From positions 1 to 51,519 of IMG/VR virus record IMGVR_UViG_3300040809_000756: a stretch of 51,519 bases of DNA; one strand, written 5' to 3'. The notes below the pieces were generated by a model that did no database searches, was not told the DNA's origin, and worked only from the letters and a program-made list of their open reading frames with translations. The position numbers and the translations under genes were made by a program. Numbering within the stretch: the stretch's first letter is position 1; each line of letters starts with the position of its first letter. The DNA is from a virus. Of this stretch, positions 1-44,537 are shown piece by piece.

Positions 1-1293
1 AGCACCAGCAGTATCAGTAGCACAAACAAGTGTTAATTCATAAGGAGTTCCAGTTAATCCATTTCTTTCTAACTGGAACTTAAAGAGTGCTTCTTTGAGA
101 ATATCTACTGATGCTTGTGTTTGATTATTTGATGAGAAAAATCCAGATGCTAATATTCTTCCACCACTCACAGTTCCACCATCAATCTTATATTCAACTG
201 CACTATCAACCCCAGCACTTACCCAAGTTCCACCTGATGTAGTTGTAGATGCTCTCATCTGCCAATTAAACAATGGTCCATTTCCTGTTCCCATAATTGA
301 TAATGCAGTCAAAATAATAATTCCATCTAATCTATTTGGTTGCCCATTGATAGGTGATTTGAGACGAATGGAAATGACTGGATAATAAGTTCCTGCTGGT
401 GAAGGTAAATCTACTGGTGCCGTAATTGGTGTTTGTACTGCCTGTTGCAATCCACGAAGTTCATAACCACCTTCTGAAATCACAGAAGAACAAACCTGTT
501 TGAGTGTGCTTGAACTTGTAGTAATTCCAGTATTACTAATCTCATATCTCAAAGGTAATGATGCTGTTGTAATATAAGTTGACTGAATAAGATTTGCGTG
601 ATGGAATGAATGGCAATGAACAAATTGACCATCAATCACAAAACCAATTCTTACAGTTCCAAGTCCCAACCACTCAATATCCATCCAAAGGATTTGTGCT
701 TTATCTTTGGATAGTGTAATACCAGATGGACCAGTTCCATCTAACTTATCAATATTCCAATCTGTCTGTGCTACTCTTTTTTCTGTTCCAGTTGATAAAC
801 TTCTTTCTACGAAATATGCAGTAGTTCCATCAATCTCAAAATACATTCCATTGTCGGCACCAAAATATCCAATTCTTTGCCTTAGATTTGCTTTTGGTGT
901 TGCGGGAACAAAAGTATTCAATACTAATAATGACTTTCCTGGTTGATATGAAAATACTTTTGTGGTTTCTCTAATTACAGAACATCCAGCAGTTGTTCCA
1001 ATACCTATGTTGATTAAACCTTGTGTAGTTGCAAATCCAACTGTAGAACCTGTTCCTACTAACAAACTATCCCAAAGATTGTTGTCTCTATATCTGTGAG
1101 ATGAATCAAAAAGAGTTAATGGACTTGATACTCTTGTTCTTCCAAAAGCATCTGCATTTGCTGGAAGAACATCAACTGGAAATCTATTAAATTTATCTAC
1201 AATCTTACCATCTCTGGTTGCAACACCATTAACCTCAAAAAGAGTTCTTTCCTGATTTAGATAATCTTGTTCATTTTTATTCCATTGAGCCAT
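1..1293 (-). CDS. Virion structural protein, 3' end beyond window
   Basis: An open frame of 431 codons runs from an ATG at 1293 to the window edge without a stop, so the C-terminus is missing. The N-terminus (MAQWNKNEQDYLNQERTLFE) and a following stretch with PANADAFGRTRVS and LFDSSHRYRDN look like a structural protein I recall from cyanomyophages near the terminase genes. The visible part is rich in beta-strand-like Thr/Ser/Gly/Val segments, has no membrane segment, and includes FVIDGQFVHCHSFHHANL, possibly a jelly-roll or lectin-like fold. It starts 2 nt after the stop of the CTS-like 105-aa gene, so it is probably co-transcribed with late genes. The exact virion location cannot be told from sequence. 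Confidence 0.75.
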   Translation of the reverse strand, partial: MAQWNKNEQDYLNQERTLFEVNGVATRDGKIVDKFNRFPVDVLPANADAFGRTRVSSPLTLFDSSHRYRDNNLWDSLLVGTGSTVGFATTQGLINIGIGTTAGCSVIRETTKVFSYQPGKSLLVLNTFVPATPKANLRQRIGYFGADNGMYFEIDGTTAYFVERSLSTGTEKRVAQTDWNIDKLDGTGPSGITLSKDKAQILWMDIEWLGLGTVRIGFVIDGQFVHCHSFHHANLIQSTYITTASLPLRYEISNTGITTSSSTLKQVCSSVISEGGYELRGLQQAVQTPITAPVDLPSPAGTYYPVISIRLKSPINGQPNRLDGIIILTALSIMGTGNGPLFNWQMRASTTTSGGTWVSAGVDSAVEYKIDGGTVSGGRILASGFFSSNNQTQASVDILKEALFKFQLERNGLTGTPYELTLVCATDTAGA

Positions 1294-1295
1294 AA

Positions 1296-1613
1296 TTAGT
1301 CAATCCACTCTAATTTTGATGGGTGATACCTTTTTGCATTTTTGATATTAAAATTCTTTTCTTGTACCGGATAAATTTGATGCACAACAACTCCAGGATA
1401 TTCACCTTGGAGTTGCTCTCCAAGCTCTTGCTTTGATGGCAAACCAGATTTGGTTACCATCTCAAGCCGATATAAACTTCCTTGCCACATTACATCTGCA
1501 ACATAACTTTCCCCAACCTGTTGTTGTTCTGGTTGAGAGTTGATGTAAAGATTTCCGTTAAAGTCTCCAGAAATAGTTACTGATTCTGATAAAAACTCTT
1601 TAAAACTTTTCAT
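1296..1613 (-). CDS. Small protein with T4 capsid-targeting-like N-terminus
   Basis: A 105-aa protein. The first residues, MKSFKEFLSES, resemble the capsid-targeting sequence of T4 internal proteins (MKTYQEFIAEA), and L-S-E followed by S fits the gp21 prohead protease rule (L/I-x-E, then cut). Residues about 38-80 (VMWQGSLYRLEM, then SGLPSKQELGEQL and EYPG) match a module in the neighbouring 397-aa protein (VIWRGKTYTLQM, SGKRPTRTEVQDQV, VYPD). I chose the ATG at 1613 over an upstream start at 1736 because the longer frame overlaps the 397-aa gene by 120 bases and adds its antisense-like tail. Inference: packaged in the head and possibly ejected with DNA; function unknown. Confidence 0.7.
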   Translation of the reverse strand: MKSFKEFLSESVTISGDFNGNLYINSQPEQQQVGESYVADVMWQGSLYRLEMVTKSGLPSKQELGEQLQGEYPGVVVHQIYPVQEKNFNIKNAKRYHPSKLEWID

Positions 1614-1614
1614 A

Positions 1615-2808
1615 CTAGCACTTCCAACGACGGCGGGCTTTACAGACTGGTTTATCTGGTGTGGATGAGCAATCAATGTTATGCATGTCTTGCTGACCCT
1701 TAGAGCGGGCGCAGAATGATTTACGACGCTTGGCATCCTTGCTTCCTGGTTTTGGATCGCCAGTTACGGCAGTCTTAAGTTTAGAACCTGGATTCTCTCT
1801 GCGATATGCTTTGACTGCGGCAGGACTCATACCATCAGTTTTATCTGACTTATTAACTTTCTGCCAGTCTTCAACTTGAAGAAGTGGTTGACCAGGCTCA
1901 TAATCTCTGATATTGAAGTAAGTAAGTCTAGAATCTGGATATACTTTTCTTACTTGATCTTGAACTTCTGTTCTTGTGGGTCTCTTTCCTGAGGGGAAGA
2001 ACATTTGTAATGTATATGTCTTACCTCTCCAAATAACCATTGCAACTATTATGTTTCCAGTTTTTGTTGGAAGTCTAGTTGCCTCCTCAAGATCACCCAT
2101 AGGTTTTACATAATTTTTATCTGGACCTGGTTTTGCTCCACTTCCACCATAAAATTTCTTTGTTTTACACTCGCAAGGATCCTTTCCACATTTTTTGCAA
2201 CACTCTTCGGAAATAATTGGTTCTGGTTTAATCAAATCAATGAACTCATATTCCATTGCCTTAAAATCTTCTCTCCAATTTGAAAACTGATACTCCTCAG
2301 TTTTATTTCCCCAATTTGCTGCTCCTTTTTTGCGACACTTAACCAATGCTCCAGAAGCGTATGCAGAAGGCCAAACTTTATATCTACTTTTTACTTTTTT
2401 GTAGCAGGCATCCTTTTCTCCAGCAGCCTCTTCTATTGCTGGTTTGGAGTAATCGTCCCAATATTTTGGTCCAAATGCACATTCAGATCTAGTCTCATTC
2501 TTCTTACACTTTGGACAATATCTGATAGTTTGTTTTTCTTCTGTAGCCACGTTTTTTGCCTTCCCTCTTCTATCTGGATTTGGATCTTGACGGTTTTTTC
2601 TTTCAAATGCTTTTTGCTCTTCCTCATCATCAAGATCTCTTTTCATTTTAGAAGACCCACATTTTGGTTTTGTTGTTTGACCTGGTTGCTTTGCACAAGG
2701 TTTACCTGCATACTTGCCACCAAGTTGAACCCAACCAGGTTTACCATCAGAAGACTTACTTTTGGTAAACCAATCATGTAATGAACTATCACCAGACTTG
2801 TTGGGCAT
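1615..2808 (-). CDS. DUF5872/DUF6321-type zinc-ribbon protein
   Basis: 397 aa, Lys-rich. The N-terminus (KSGDSSLHDWFTKS, PGWVQLGGKYAGKPCAKQPG) resembles DUF5872, and the C-terminus (AVKAYRRENPGSKL, KRRKSFCARSKGQ, CKARRRWKC) resembles DUF6321, both common in phages of this group. Between them are two Cys clusters, CPKCKKNETRSEC and ECCKKCGKDPCEC, which look like zinc ribbons, then a module shared with the next gene (VIWRGKTYTLQMFFPSGKRP). It follows gp16 behind a late promoter at 2830-2837. Family assignment is from memory of conserved motifs. The role is unknown; a late, possibly virion-associated, nucleic-acid-binding protein is the best guess. Confidence 0.75.
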   Translation of the reverse strand: MPNKSGDSSLHDWFTKSKSSDGKPGWVQLGGKYAGKPCAKQPGQTTKPKCGSSKMKRDLDDEEEQKAFERKNRQDPNPDRRGKAKNVATEEKQTIRYCPKCKKNETRSECAFGPKYWDDYSKPAIEEAAGEKDACYKKVKSRYKVWPSAYASGALVKCRKKGAANWGNKTEEYQFSNWREDFKAMEYEFIDLIKPEPIISEECCKKCGKDPCECKTKKFYGGSGAKPGPDKNYVKPMGDLEEATRLPTKTGNIIVAMVIWRGKTYTLQMFFPSGKRPTRTEVQDQVRKVYPDSRLTYFNIRDYEPGQPLLQVEDWQKVNKSDKTDGMSPAAVKAYRRENPGSKLKTAVTGDPKPGSKDAKRRKSFCARSKGQQDMHNIDCSSTPDKPVCKARRRWKC

Positions 2809-2828: not shown

Positions 2829-3269
2829 TTATTTATCTTTTTGGGATTCATCTTGTTGTTTAATCAATTTTGCCAACTCTGCGGTAGATCCAACAAAAAG
2901 TGCATTTGTTACATTTGTTGGACCTTTTGATTCTTTAGTCTCCTCAATATCTTTTAATTTTTTCTGAACATCTATTAATTTTTCCGTTGCATCGGAAACG
3001 TTCTTTATAAGTTGGCCAGCAACCTCATATGCCCTAGGCAATTCAGTTTCCTGTGCCAGTTCCAATATACCATTAATTGCTTCTTGACCTTTTTCTATAA
3101 TAGAATATAAATTTGCCCTAGTATATTCGTAATCTTTTTTTAAGTCGGTTTTTTTATTCTCTTGTTGATTAGCCTCTACTACTTCTGGAATTATTGAAGT
3201 ATCTTCTTCATCAAAACCTTCAGTATTAAATTCTTCATTCAACTTCTCATATTTTTTTGTCATAATCAT
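2829..3269 (-). CDS. gp16: Small terminase subunit gp16
   Basis: 146 aa, highly charged and mostly helical. The acidic N-terminal third is followed by a coiled-coil-like core (YTRANLYSIIEKGQEAING, LAQETELPRAYEVAGQLIKN) and a C-terminal tail, as in T4 gp16 (164 aa), which oligomerises and helps the large terminase gp17 start packaging. Position directly after gp13-gp14-gp15 matches the T4 gene order. Two starts are possible, 3269 (overlapping the gp15 stop by 4 nt) and 3263 (MTKKYEK). Its TAA stop is part of a late-promoter-like GATAAATA. gp17 would be expected further downstream, outside the window or past the partial gene at 1-1293. Confidence 0.85.
   Translation of the reverse strand: MIMTKKYEKLNEEFNTEGFDEEDTSIIPEVVEANQQENKKTDLKKDYEYTRANLYSIIEKGQEAINGILELAQETELPRAYEVAGQLIKNVSDATEKLIDVQKKLKDIEETKESKGPTNVTNALFVGSTAELAKLIKQQDESQKDK
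2830..2837 (-). promoter_or_regulatory. Late promoter before the DUF5872-type gene
   Basis: GATAAATA on the minus strand, overlapping the TAA stop of gp16 (GAT AAA TAA), 21 nt before the ATG at 2808. Confidence 0.65.
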
Positions 3270-43891: not shown

Positions 43892-44488
43892 TCAGCTCTC
43901 GTCGCCAGATGATGTGTACTTGTTCTTCAGTTCACTCTCTTTCTTTTTGCCTGTTGATTGAAGAACCAAATCTCTCAGTTTTCTTCTACCTTCTCTCTTA
44001 ATTCTTCTCTTCTCATCTCTAGTGTATTCTCCCCTTGTCATCTTTACCTGCTTCTCTCTTTCAGCAGTTGGTTTCTTCTTAGAAAGGAGTTTACTTCCTT
44101 CTTTATCTAAATCTCGTGATTTTGCTTTTGAAGATGTTGATGCAGTTCCTCCAGATGCCTTTTCCGCTGCTCTTTTTCTCGCTGCAGCTCTTCTTTCTGC
44201 CTTTACCTTATCTGCATATGATTGTTTAACCTCAGCAGAACCTCTTTCCTGTGTTGGTTGTTGCTGTCTTTCAGAACTTGATCTTTGGGTTCCAATATCT
44301 TTGCGGTCACTATATCTCTTTGCTGGTTCTGTTTTACCACCACCAACTCTCTTTCTTCTTCTAGTTTCTGCATCAGACAGTCTCCTGTCAGATCCTACTC
44401 TTCCACCTTCCCCAGTTTTTCTAATTTGGGAAGAACCCATTACATCAGCATCATATGCTTCGGCACAAAATTGAGAGAACGTCTTCAT
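43892..44488 (-). CDS. Very basic protein with capsid-targeting-like N-terminus
   Basis: 198 aa, about a third Lys/Arg. It starts MKTFSQFCAEAYDAD, which resembles the T4 capsid-targeting sequence (MKTYQEFIAEA) including a gp21-type cut after the Glu, although Cys replaces the usual Leu/Ile. The rest is Arg/Lys/Ser/Glu-rich and probably disordered (SDAETRRRKRVGGGKTEP, VKAERRAAARKRAAEKASGG, EYTRDEKRRIKREGRRKLRD). A terminator upstream (44538-44568) and a late promoter (GATAAATA at 44511-44518) set it apart from its early-type neighbours, as expected for a virion protein. I infer an internal head protein that coats DNA or is injected into the host. Confidence 0.72.
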   Translation of the reverse strand: MKTFSQFCAEAYDADVMGSSQIRKTGEGGRVGSDRRLSDAETRRRKRVGGGKTEPAKRYSDRKDIGTQRSSSERQQQPTQERGSAEVKQSYADKVKAERRAAARKRAAEKASGGTASTSSKAKSRDLDKEGSKLLSKKKPTAEREKQVKMTRGEYTRDEKRRIKREGRRKLRDLVLQSTGKKKESELKNKYTSSGDES

Positions 44489-44510
44489 CAGAATAAGAGA
44501 GATTTCTTAT

Positions 44511-44518
44511 TATTTATC
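44511..44518 (-). promoter_or_regulatory. Late promoter of the basic CTS-bearing protein
   Basis: Minus strand GATAAATA, one base from the T4 late consensus TATAAATA, 22 nt before the ATG at 44488 and just after a terminator. It is one of only two late-type boxes seen in the right block. Confidence 0.7.
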
Positions 44519-44537
44519 AATCCTAATTCATCACAAG

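Follow-up and report, generated by a model that had tools for sequence, protein, structure and literature searches.

A T4-type capsid-targeting and gp21-cleavage peptide as the best reading of the N-terminus of the cyanophage protein family PHROG_1742

The window analysed here is the whole stretch of 51,519 nucleotides of the IMG/VR virus record IMGVR_UViG_3300040809_000756, a contig from an uncultured phage. On its minus strand, an ORF running from 1613 to 1296 encodes a protein of 105 residues (105 codons plus the stop) with the N-terminus MKSFKEFLSESVTISG; its translation opens MKSFKEFLSESVTISGDFNGNLYINSQ, which includes the stretch MKSFKEFLSE|S, the bar marking a predicted cut. An alternative in-frame ATG at 1736 would give a protein of 146 residues, but it overlaps the upstream gene, and the first methionine of the homologues corresponds to position 1613 and not to 1736. 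The start was therefore placed at 1613, where the ATG lies one base past the stop of the upstream gene. The protein belongs to PHROG_1742 (E 6.2e-42; residues 1-99 aligned with positions 1-99 of the 108 in the profile), a family of T4-like cyanophages with no assigned function, and 135 phage records carry a relative at E<=1e-5. The copy present in a 112-kb contig (G001) is 98% identical to that of the window. The closest isolate is S-SCSM1, whose orthologue gp030 (79% identity; 44215-44535) lies after terS and before terL, and the orthologue in phage Syn33 is annotated as T4-LIKE GC 1019.

The setting of the gene is the terS-terL block (neck/terminase) of a T4-like cyanophage. Upstream of it are found a phrog_727/DUF6321 protein (1615-2808, minus strand; profile, Pfam and hhalign matches), the terminase small subunit gp16 (2829-3269, minus strand; phrog_445, PF11053), gp15, gp14 and gp13. 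The downstream gene (1-1293, minus strand) is open to the window end, and its first residues resemble those of the virion protein S-SZBM1_190 when the N-termini are compared by eye. The position between terS and terL fits the label of late protein that the first-pass annotation had given to the product. The late-promoter pattern [TC]ATAAATA has four minus-strand matches in the window (20746, 14504, 6566 and 4318), none of them close upstream of the 105-residue gene.

The first-pass annotation had likened MKSFKEFLSES to the targeting peptide of the T4 internal proteins, and had noted that LSE followed by S would fit cleavage by gp21. According to the accessible text of PMC9026906, truncation of the T4 protein IPIII indicated that its first ten residues suffice for head entry, amber-suppressor substitutions assigned residues 4 and 7 mainly to targeting and residues 8 and 10 to processing, and gp21 cleaves after L/I-x-E. 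In the T4 record, both ipII and ipIII begin with MKTYQEFIAE|A. The family bore out both likenesses. Of 204 body-homologous ORFs, a start and an aligned beginning of the body were available for 202; 148 of these were unique, and 97 remained at nr90. Among these 97 members, an aromatic residue (F/Y) is found at position 4 in 96 and at position 7 in 96, position 8 is L, I or M in 96 (L/I in 86 and M in 10), E10 is present in 96 and S11 in 92. The four positions conserved in PHROG_1742 are the four determinants of T4 IPIII. In the window, codons 1-10 (MKSFKEFLSE; 1584-1613, minus strand) thus correspond to a capsid-targeting-like peptide, and codons 10-11 (1581-1586, minus strand) to the gp21 cleavage site LSE|S predicted by the L/I-x-E rule, which would leave a mature protein of 95 residues with a pI of 5.3.

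The N-terminal tag of PHROG_1742 is not due to chance. The DNA of the window contains the tag pattern once, and none of 100 dinucleotide shuffles contains it. The 80 loci of our first scan are slightly biased towards the tag, because it was one of the six patterns used in that scan; the 68 members obtained from a separate, body-only pattern scan of IMG/VR are unbiased, and F/Y4, F/Y7 and E10 are intact in 67 of these 68 among the matches listed. Moreover, S11 is encoded by 51 TCN and 41 AGY codons, so that both serine codon classes are used and the conservation acts on the protein. The sole nr90 member that departs from the full tag, L265 (9284-9592, minus strand), lacks the targeting aromatics (MDAAAKRNNLGESVNISG), but its L-x-E|S is intact as LGE|S; a frameshift or an altered start is possible in this case.

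We then asked how specific the tag is, scanning 16 whole records with the exact pattern MKx[F/Y]xxF[L/I/M/V/F]xE and with the reversed pattern as control, and obtained 29 matches with the former and 1 with the latter. In T4 the exact pattern matched ipII, ipIII and gp61.1; in the T7 record it had no match. Since it misses ipI and alt, two of the four known head-internal proteins of T4, the pattern defines only a subset of such proteins. The gp61.1 gene (L218 18966-19130, minus strand), T4's only exact-pattern gene beyond ipII and ipIII, encodes 54 residues beginning with MKTFKEFIKED, and its product is on this basis a candidate internal protein. In nine isolate cyanophages, the 16 exact-pattern matches were distributed among 7 PHROG_1742 members (membership being assigned separately for RN05-S and Syn33 and by eye in the case of G010), 7 nucleotidyltransferases and 2 others, namely a 111-aa ORF of S-SKS1 that carries the linker of the nucleotidyltransferases and the SAM hydrolase of S-CREM2. 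In typical cyanophages, therefore, the tag marks the PHROG_1742 gene and one enzyme. A loose version of the motif was found at the annotated starts of 12 of the 719 CDS of three genomes, compared to 16 occurrences at about 16,100 other candidate starts (p 5e-10).

The tag is also modular. An IMG/VR pattern in which F4, F7, E10 and A11 were fixed gave at least 124 matches in at least 120 stretches, while a permuted pattern of similar content, used as control, was found in 1 stretch. The matches listed lie no more than 27 in-frame residues from the upstream stop of their ORF in 123 of 124 cases, the remaining one being at 70. Once their first 12 residues were removed, the 118 tagged proteins of at least 50 aa among the matches listed fell into 36 single-linkage clusters. 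Pfam searches with 19 of the listed tagged proteins and with the second tagged protein of the window identified nucleotidyltransferase, DPBB lytic transglycosylase, GNAT acetyltransferase, DUF5661, DUF6321 and DUF6267 domains. Contig L102 encodes a fusion of the tag with a KSGDSSLHDWF domain, and the same domain opens, untagged, the upstream protein of the window.

Some of these carriers deserve a separate description. The tagged DPBB lytic transglycosylase, GNAT, DUF6267 and DUF6321 proteins are encoded at L095 5138-5554, L185 4881-5270, L132 947-2098 and L141 8109-8393, respectively; the DUF6321 that occurs alone and tagged in L141 is, in the window, the C-terminal domain of the multidomain late protein encoded at 1615-2808 (minus strand). 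In the nucleotidyltransferases the tag is followed by a linker, GHG-W...AKT..GKLKFY (L084 7704-12846, minus strand; L085 19819-21048; L191 3514-4977), and stretches like this linker are also found in the Cas9-like gp12 and the kinase gp14 of S-CREM2, as a second module beside the tag. Tandem pairs of tagged genes occur on one contig in L154 (639-1591), L099 (3736-4532), L150 and L386, as do ipII and ipIII in T4. A set of small tagged proteins with an HGT/HYT...I...GF signature was found at L099 3736-4149, L154 1085-1591, L352 2001-2648 and L361 2001-2393. Their HGT..I..GF start recalls that of ADP-ribosyltransferases, and they are possible analogues of T4 Alt. When this was checked, the 3 proteins scanned had no Pfam match and no credible solved structure was obtained, and against PHROG the only match was a weak one to an RNA 2'-phosphotransferase (E 7e-4).

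Sought across the window, the same N-terminal pattern recurs in a second ORF, which runs from 44488 to 43892 on the minus strand and begins with MKTFSQFCAEA. The product has 198 residues, is rich in lysine and arginine, and has a mature pI of 10.4, being strongly basic like the basic internal proteins of T4. Relatives matching the first 90 residues were found in cyanophages (S-SM2, P-TIM68 and others), together with similar tagged proteins in IMG/VR.

Are the carriers of the tag found in virions? The tagged cytidylyl/NMN adenylyltransferase is, by published mass spectrometry, a virion protein in all 4 of the 4 phages for which both a proteome text and the N-terminus were at hand. These are S-SCSM1, where the virion NMNAT starts with MKSFLQFLKEA (published proteome text); S-CREM2, where virion ORF154 starts with MKNFSSFLTEA (published Table 3); S-SZBM1, whose virion protein S-SZBM1_140 (published Table 1) starts with MRFRQFIIEA, a tag one residue shorter; and S-SM1, where T4-GC190, a virion protein in the published text, starts with MKKFSAFLNEA. 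The same text on S-SM1 also states that the T4-GC190 enzyme had earlier gone undetected in S-PM2 virions. Additional tagged proteins in the virion table of S-CREM2 are the gp6 SAM hydrolase, gp13 (one peptide), the gp14 kinase (GTG start) and gp136, and the Cas9-like gp12 carries RFASFMAEA slightly inside its N-terminus; the tagged gp30 and gp175 are not in that table.

The association was quantified in three genomes. With the loose motif, 7 of the 12 tagged CDS are virion proteins, compared to 127 of 719 overall (p=0.0017), a value that is optimistic because the motif was widened after some N-termini had been read; with the strict motif, whose definition preceded the inspection of the N-termini, 4 of the 8 tagged CDS are virion proteins (p=0.036). 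For S-SCSM1 we counted 47 'virion protein' labels against the 45 given in the paper, and 45 were used in the test. Several cyanophage virion proteomes list enzymes and, as far as the accessible text of PMC9602691 and PMC10665884 goes, their authors weighed co-purification as an alternative and were unable to separate packaged cargo from co-purified protein.

For the PHROG_1742 protein itself, the virion check rests on the orthologues of S-SCSM1 and S-SZBM1. In S-SCSM1, gp030 is annotated as 'hypothetical' and lacks the 'virion protein' label that its neighbours gp029 and gp031 carry. In S-SZBM1, the orthologue S-SZBM1_191 is absent from the 30 virion proteins of Table 1, as is its tagged neighbour _192. 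The predicted mature forms would yield two tryptic peptides of 7-25 aa in S-SCSM1 and six in S-SZBM1, so the miss in S-SZBM1 is harder to excuse. Low copy number, loss or degradation could possibly account for the absence of the orthologues from the proteomes.

The protease that would process such a tag is encoded by these phages. The gp21 family (PF03420) was detected in 13 of the 15 records, among them the 112-kb G001; it was missed in two contigs, 39 and 64 kb long, and the window is a fragment that ends before the gp21 region. A motif of the same type is present in gp23 of S-SCSM1 (FLAE|A, residue 58), S-CREM2 (LLTE|A, 56) and S-SZBM1 (ILTE|A, 52). In T4 gp23 the motif is FLTE|A, at residue 65, which we take to be the site at which it is cut.

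Judged from sequence, a T4-type capsid-targeting and gp21-cleavage peptide is the best reading of the PHROG_1742 N-terminus. Its observed basis is the conserved tag and cleavage motif, their modularity, the link to proteins detected in virions, and the presence of gp21 with a matching gp23 site. These observations strongly favour the targeting and cleavage reading proposed in the first-pass annotation, while the presence in virions that it also implied has so far found no support in the reported proteomes of S-SCSM1 and S-SZBM1. Made late, the precursor would join the prohead core via F4 and F7. Cleavage after E10 (LSE|S) by the prohead protease gp21 would then leave the 95-residue mature protein loose in the DNA-filled head, from which, by analogy with the T4 internal proteins, it may exit along with the DNA and be active during the first minutes of infection. 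It seems to us highly probable that residues 1-10 are a working head-targeting peptide. By analogy with T4 we infer that the protein is probably packaged and cut, and we lean slightly towards its ejection into the host with the DNA, which is already a guess. An effector function on the host appears doubtful at this stage, and the 'early effector' role that the first-pass annotation had suggested is likewise a guess. In short, since its N-terminal label is the same as the head-loading label of T4, the particle probably contains the cyanophage protein, which may reach the host along with the DNA.

We also modelled the body of the protein. The AlphaFold model, built from an alignment of 81 sequences (the window and 80 of 87 references), has a pTM of 0.47 and pLDDT values below 50 at residues 6-32, indicative of disorder. 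Residues 11-33 (SVTISGDFNGNLYINS...; 1515-1583, minus strand) are conserved and mostly predicted to be disordered, and residues 34-105 (1299-1514, minus strand) are predicted to form a small folded domain, with beta-beta-alpha-beta at 35-83 (block pLDDT 84-91 over residues 41-80) and C-terminal strands. A second model, made for a distant family member with 46 sequences, agrees. The upstream phrog_727 protein holds a paralogue of this domain (about 1924-2070; hhalign, 47 columns, E 1e-5), and the domain is also present in S-SCSM1 gp029, labelled virion protein. Pfam gave nothing at E<=10 for the body of the window protein, and the weak, scattered matches in single members look like chance. RPA70, the only match in a profile search of solved structures, was rejected as not credible (E 0.14-0.19).

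The sharing of the domain with the upstream protein and with gp029 would suit a head-assembly or core component, which would enter the prohead by its tag, serve in assembly, DNA packing or neck closure and then stay in the head or be degraded, with no effector function. The location of the gene between terS and terL in the records inspected, with virion or structural proteins nearby, points in the same direction, as does its conservation across many cyanophages (the 135 records), whereas the T4 internal proteins change fast (accessible text of PMC9026906). In addition, gp21 might also cut within the folded domain, at L64-x-E66, which is invariant; this could let the protease destroy the protein, and such destruction would explain its absence from the two proteomes. 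However, this internal site sits in a confidently predicted helix, and the tag is also carried by clearly non-structural enzymes (nucleotidyltransferase, SAM hydrolase and kinase), so we consider a purely structural role unlikely.

The N-terminus could instead do no more than bind a partner or assist folding in a cytoplasmic late protein, its likeness to T4 being convergent. The lack of reports of the orthologues in two virion proteomes and a cleavage that is only predicted would be compatible with this, but the T4 determinants are matched exactly in 96 of 97 members, the pattern is specific in whole genomes and precedes 36 body clusters among the matches listed, and other carriers of the tag have repeatedly been detected in virions; we regard convergence as very unlikely.

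Structure comparisons raised one more candidate function. In Foldseek, the top match was YkzG (4njc, E 0.09) for one family model and Gp2 (4lk0, E 0.17) for a second one, neither being significant, and VIA-align placed 4lk0 first (Z 4.6, rmsd 2.3, 50 residues), on a par with phi29 p6 and ribosomal proteins (Z 4.5). T7 Gp2 is a host RNA polymerase inhibitor that is made after infection and is not known to be packaged. That the domain is a head-delivered RNA polymerase ligand, acting like Gp2 or YkzG right after DNA entry, is extremely improbable: annotated RNA polymerase inhibitors do figure among the BFVD matches, but hhalign of the family profile against the single T7 Gp2 sequence indicated no relation (probability 0.1), the small beta-beta-alpha-beta fold is common, and the weak likeness, tied with unrelated proteins, comes without sequence relation. 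A small fold in common shows no function.

Returning to the capsid-targeting reading, the wider pattern raised the possibility of a general 'address label' system in T4-like cyanophages, in which a portable 10-residue peptide would direct cargo to the head, where gp21 would trim it before its delivery along with the DNA. The labelled cargo, a preloaded set of ready-made proteins for host takeover and metabolism, would comprise the NMN/cytidylyl transferase, the SAM hydrolase, the kinase and possibly the Cas9-like nuclease, with PHROG_1742 as the widespread small cargo; for this proposal as a whole we see the chances as even. If true, the finding of metabolic enzymes in the virions of cyanophages, a puzzle that the tag may explain, would come down to a sorting rule. 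With a packaging signal that is short and can be tested, cargo could be told from co-purified protein, the proteins that many uncultured phages inject could be predicted from sequence, and the internal-protein strategy of T4 would be extended to the phages of cyanobacteria; T4-like cyanophages are abundant ocean viruses. That T4-like phages vary their cargo via capsid-targeting sequences (CTSs) has already been suggested, according to the accessible parts of PMC9026906 and PMC3012670. In the literature searched, which left most subscription papers outside its reach, we found no account of a CTS in cyanophages. Thus, the CTSs of T4 are known, and what is new here is the reading of the PHROG_1742 tag and the wider, testable pattern.

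Compared with known systems, PHROG_1742 is like T4 IPII and IPIII in having a ten-residue N-terminal peptide with aromatics at 4 and 7, I or L at 8 and E10, a small residue after the predicted cut, and a small size, in phages that bear gp21. It is unlike them in that P1' is a serine and not the alanine of ipII and ipIII, in that its predicted mature form is acidic (pI 5.3) and not basic, and in that its body is unrelated to the T4 internal proteins and broadly conserved, its packaging and cleavage being only predicted. The T4-GC190 cytidylyl/NMN adenylyltransferase is larger (about 290-440 aa), has a separate linker and has been reported in the virions of four phages, unlike PHROG_1742, but both proteins share the tag, and the enzyme is usually the only other exact-pattern gene of the genomes.
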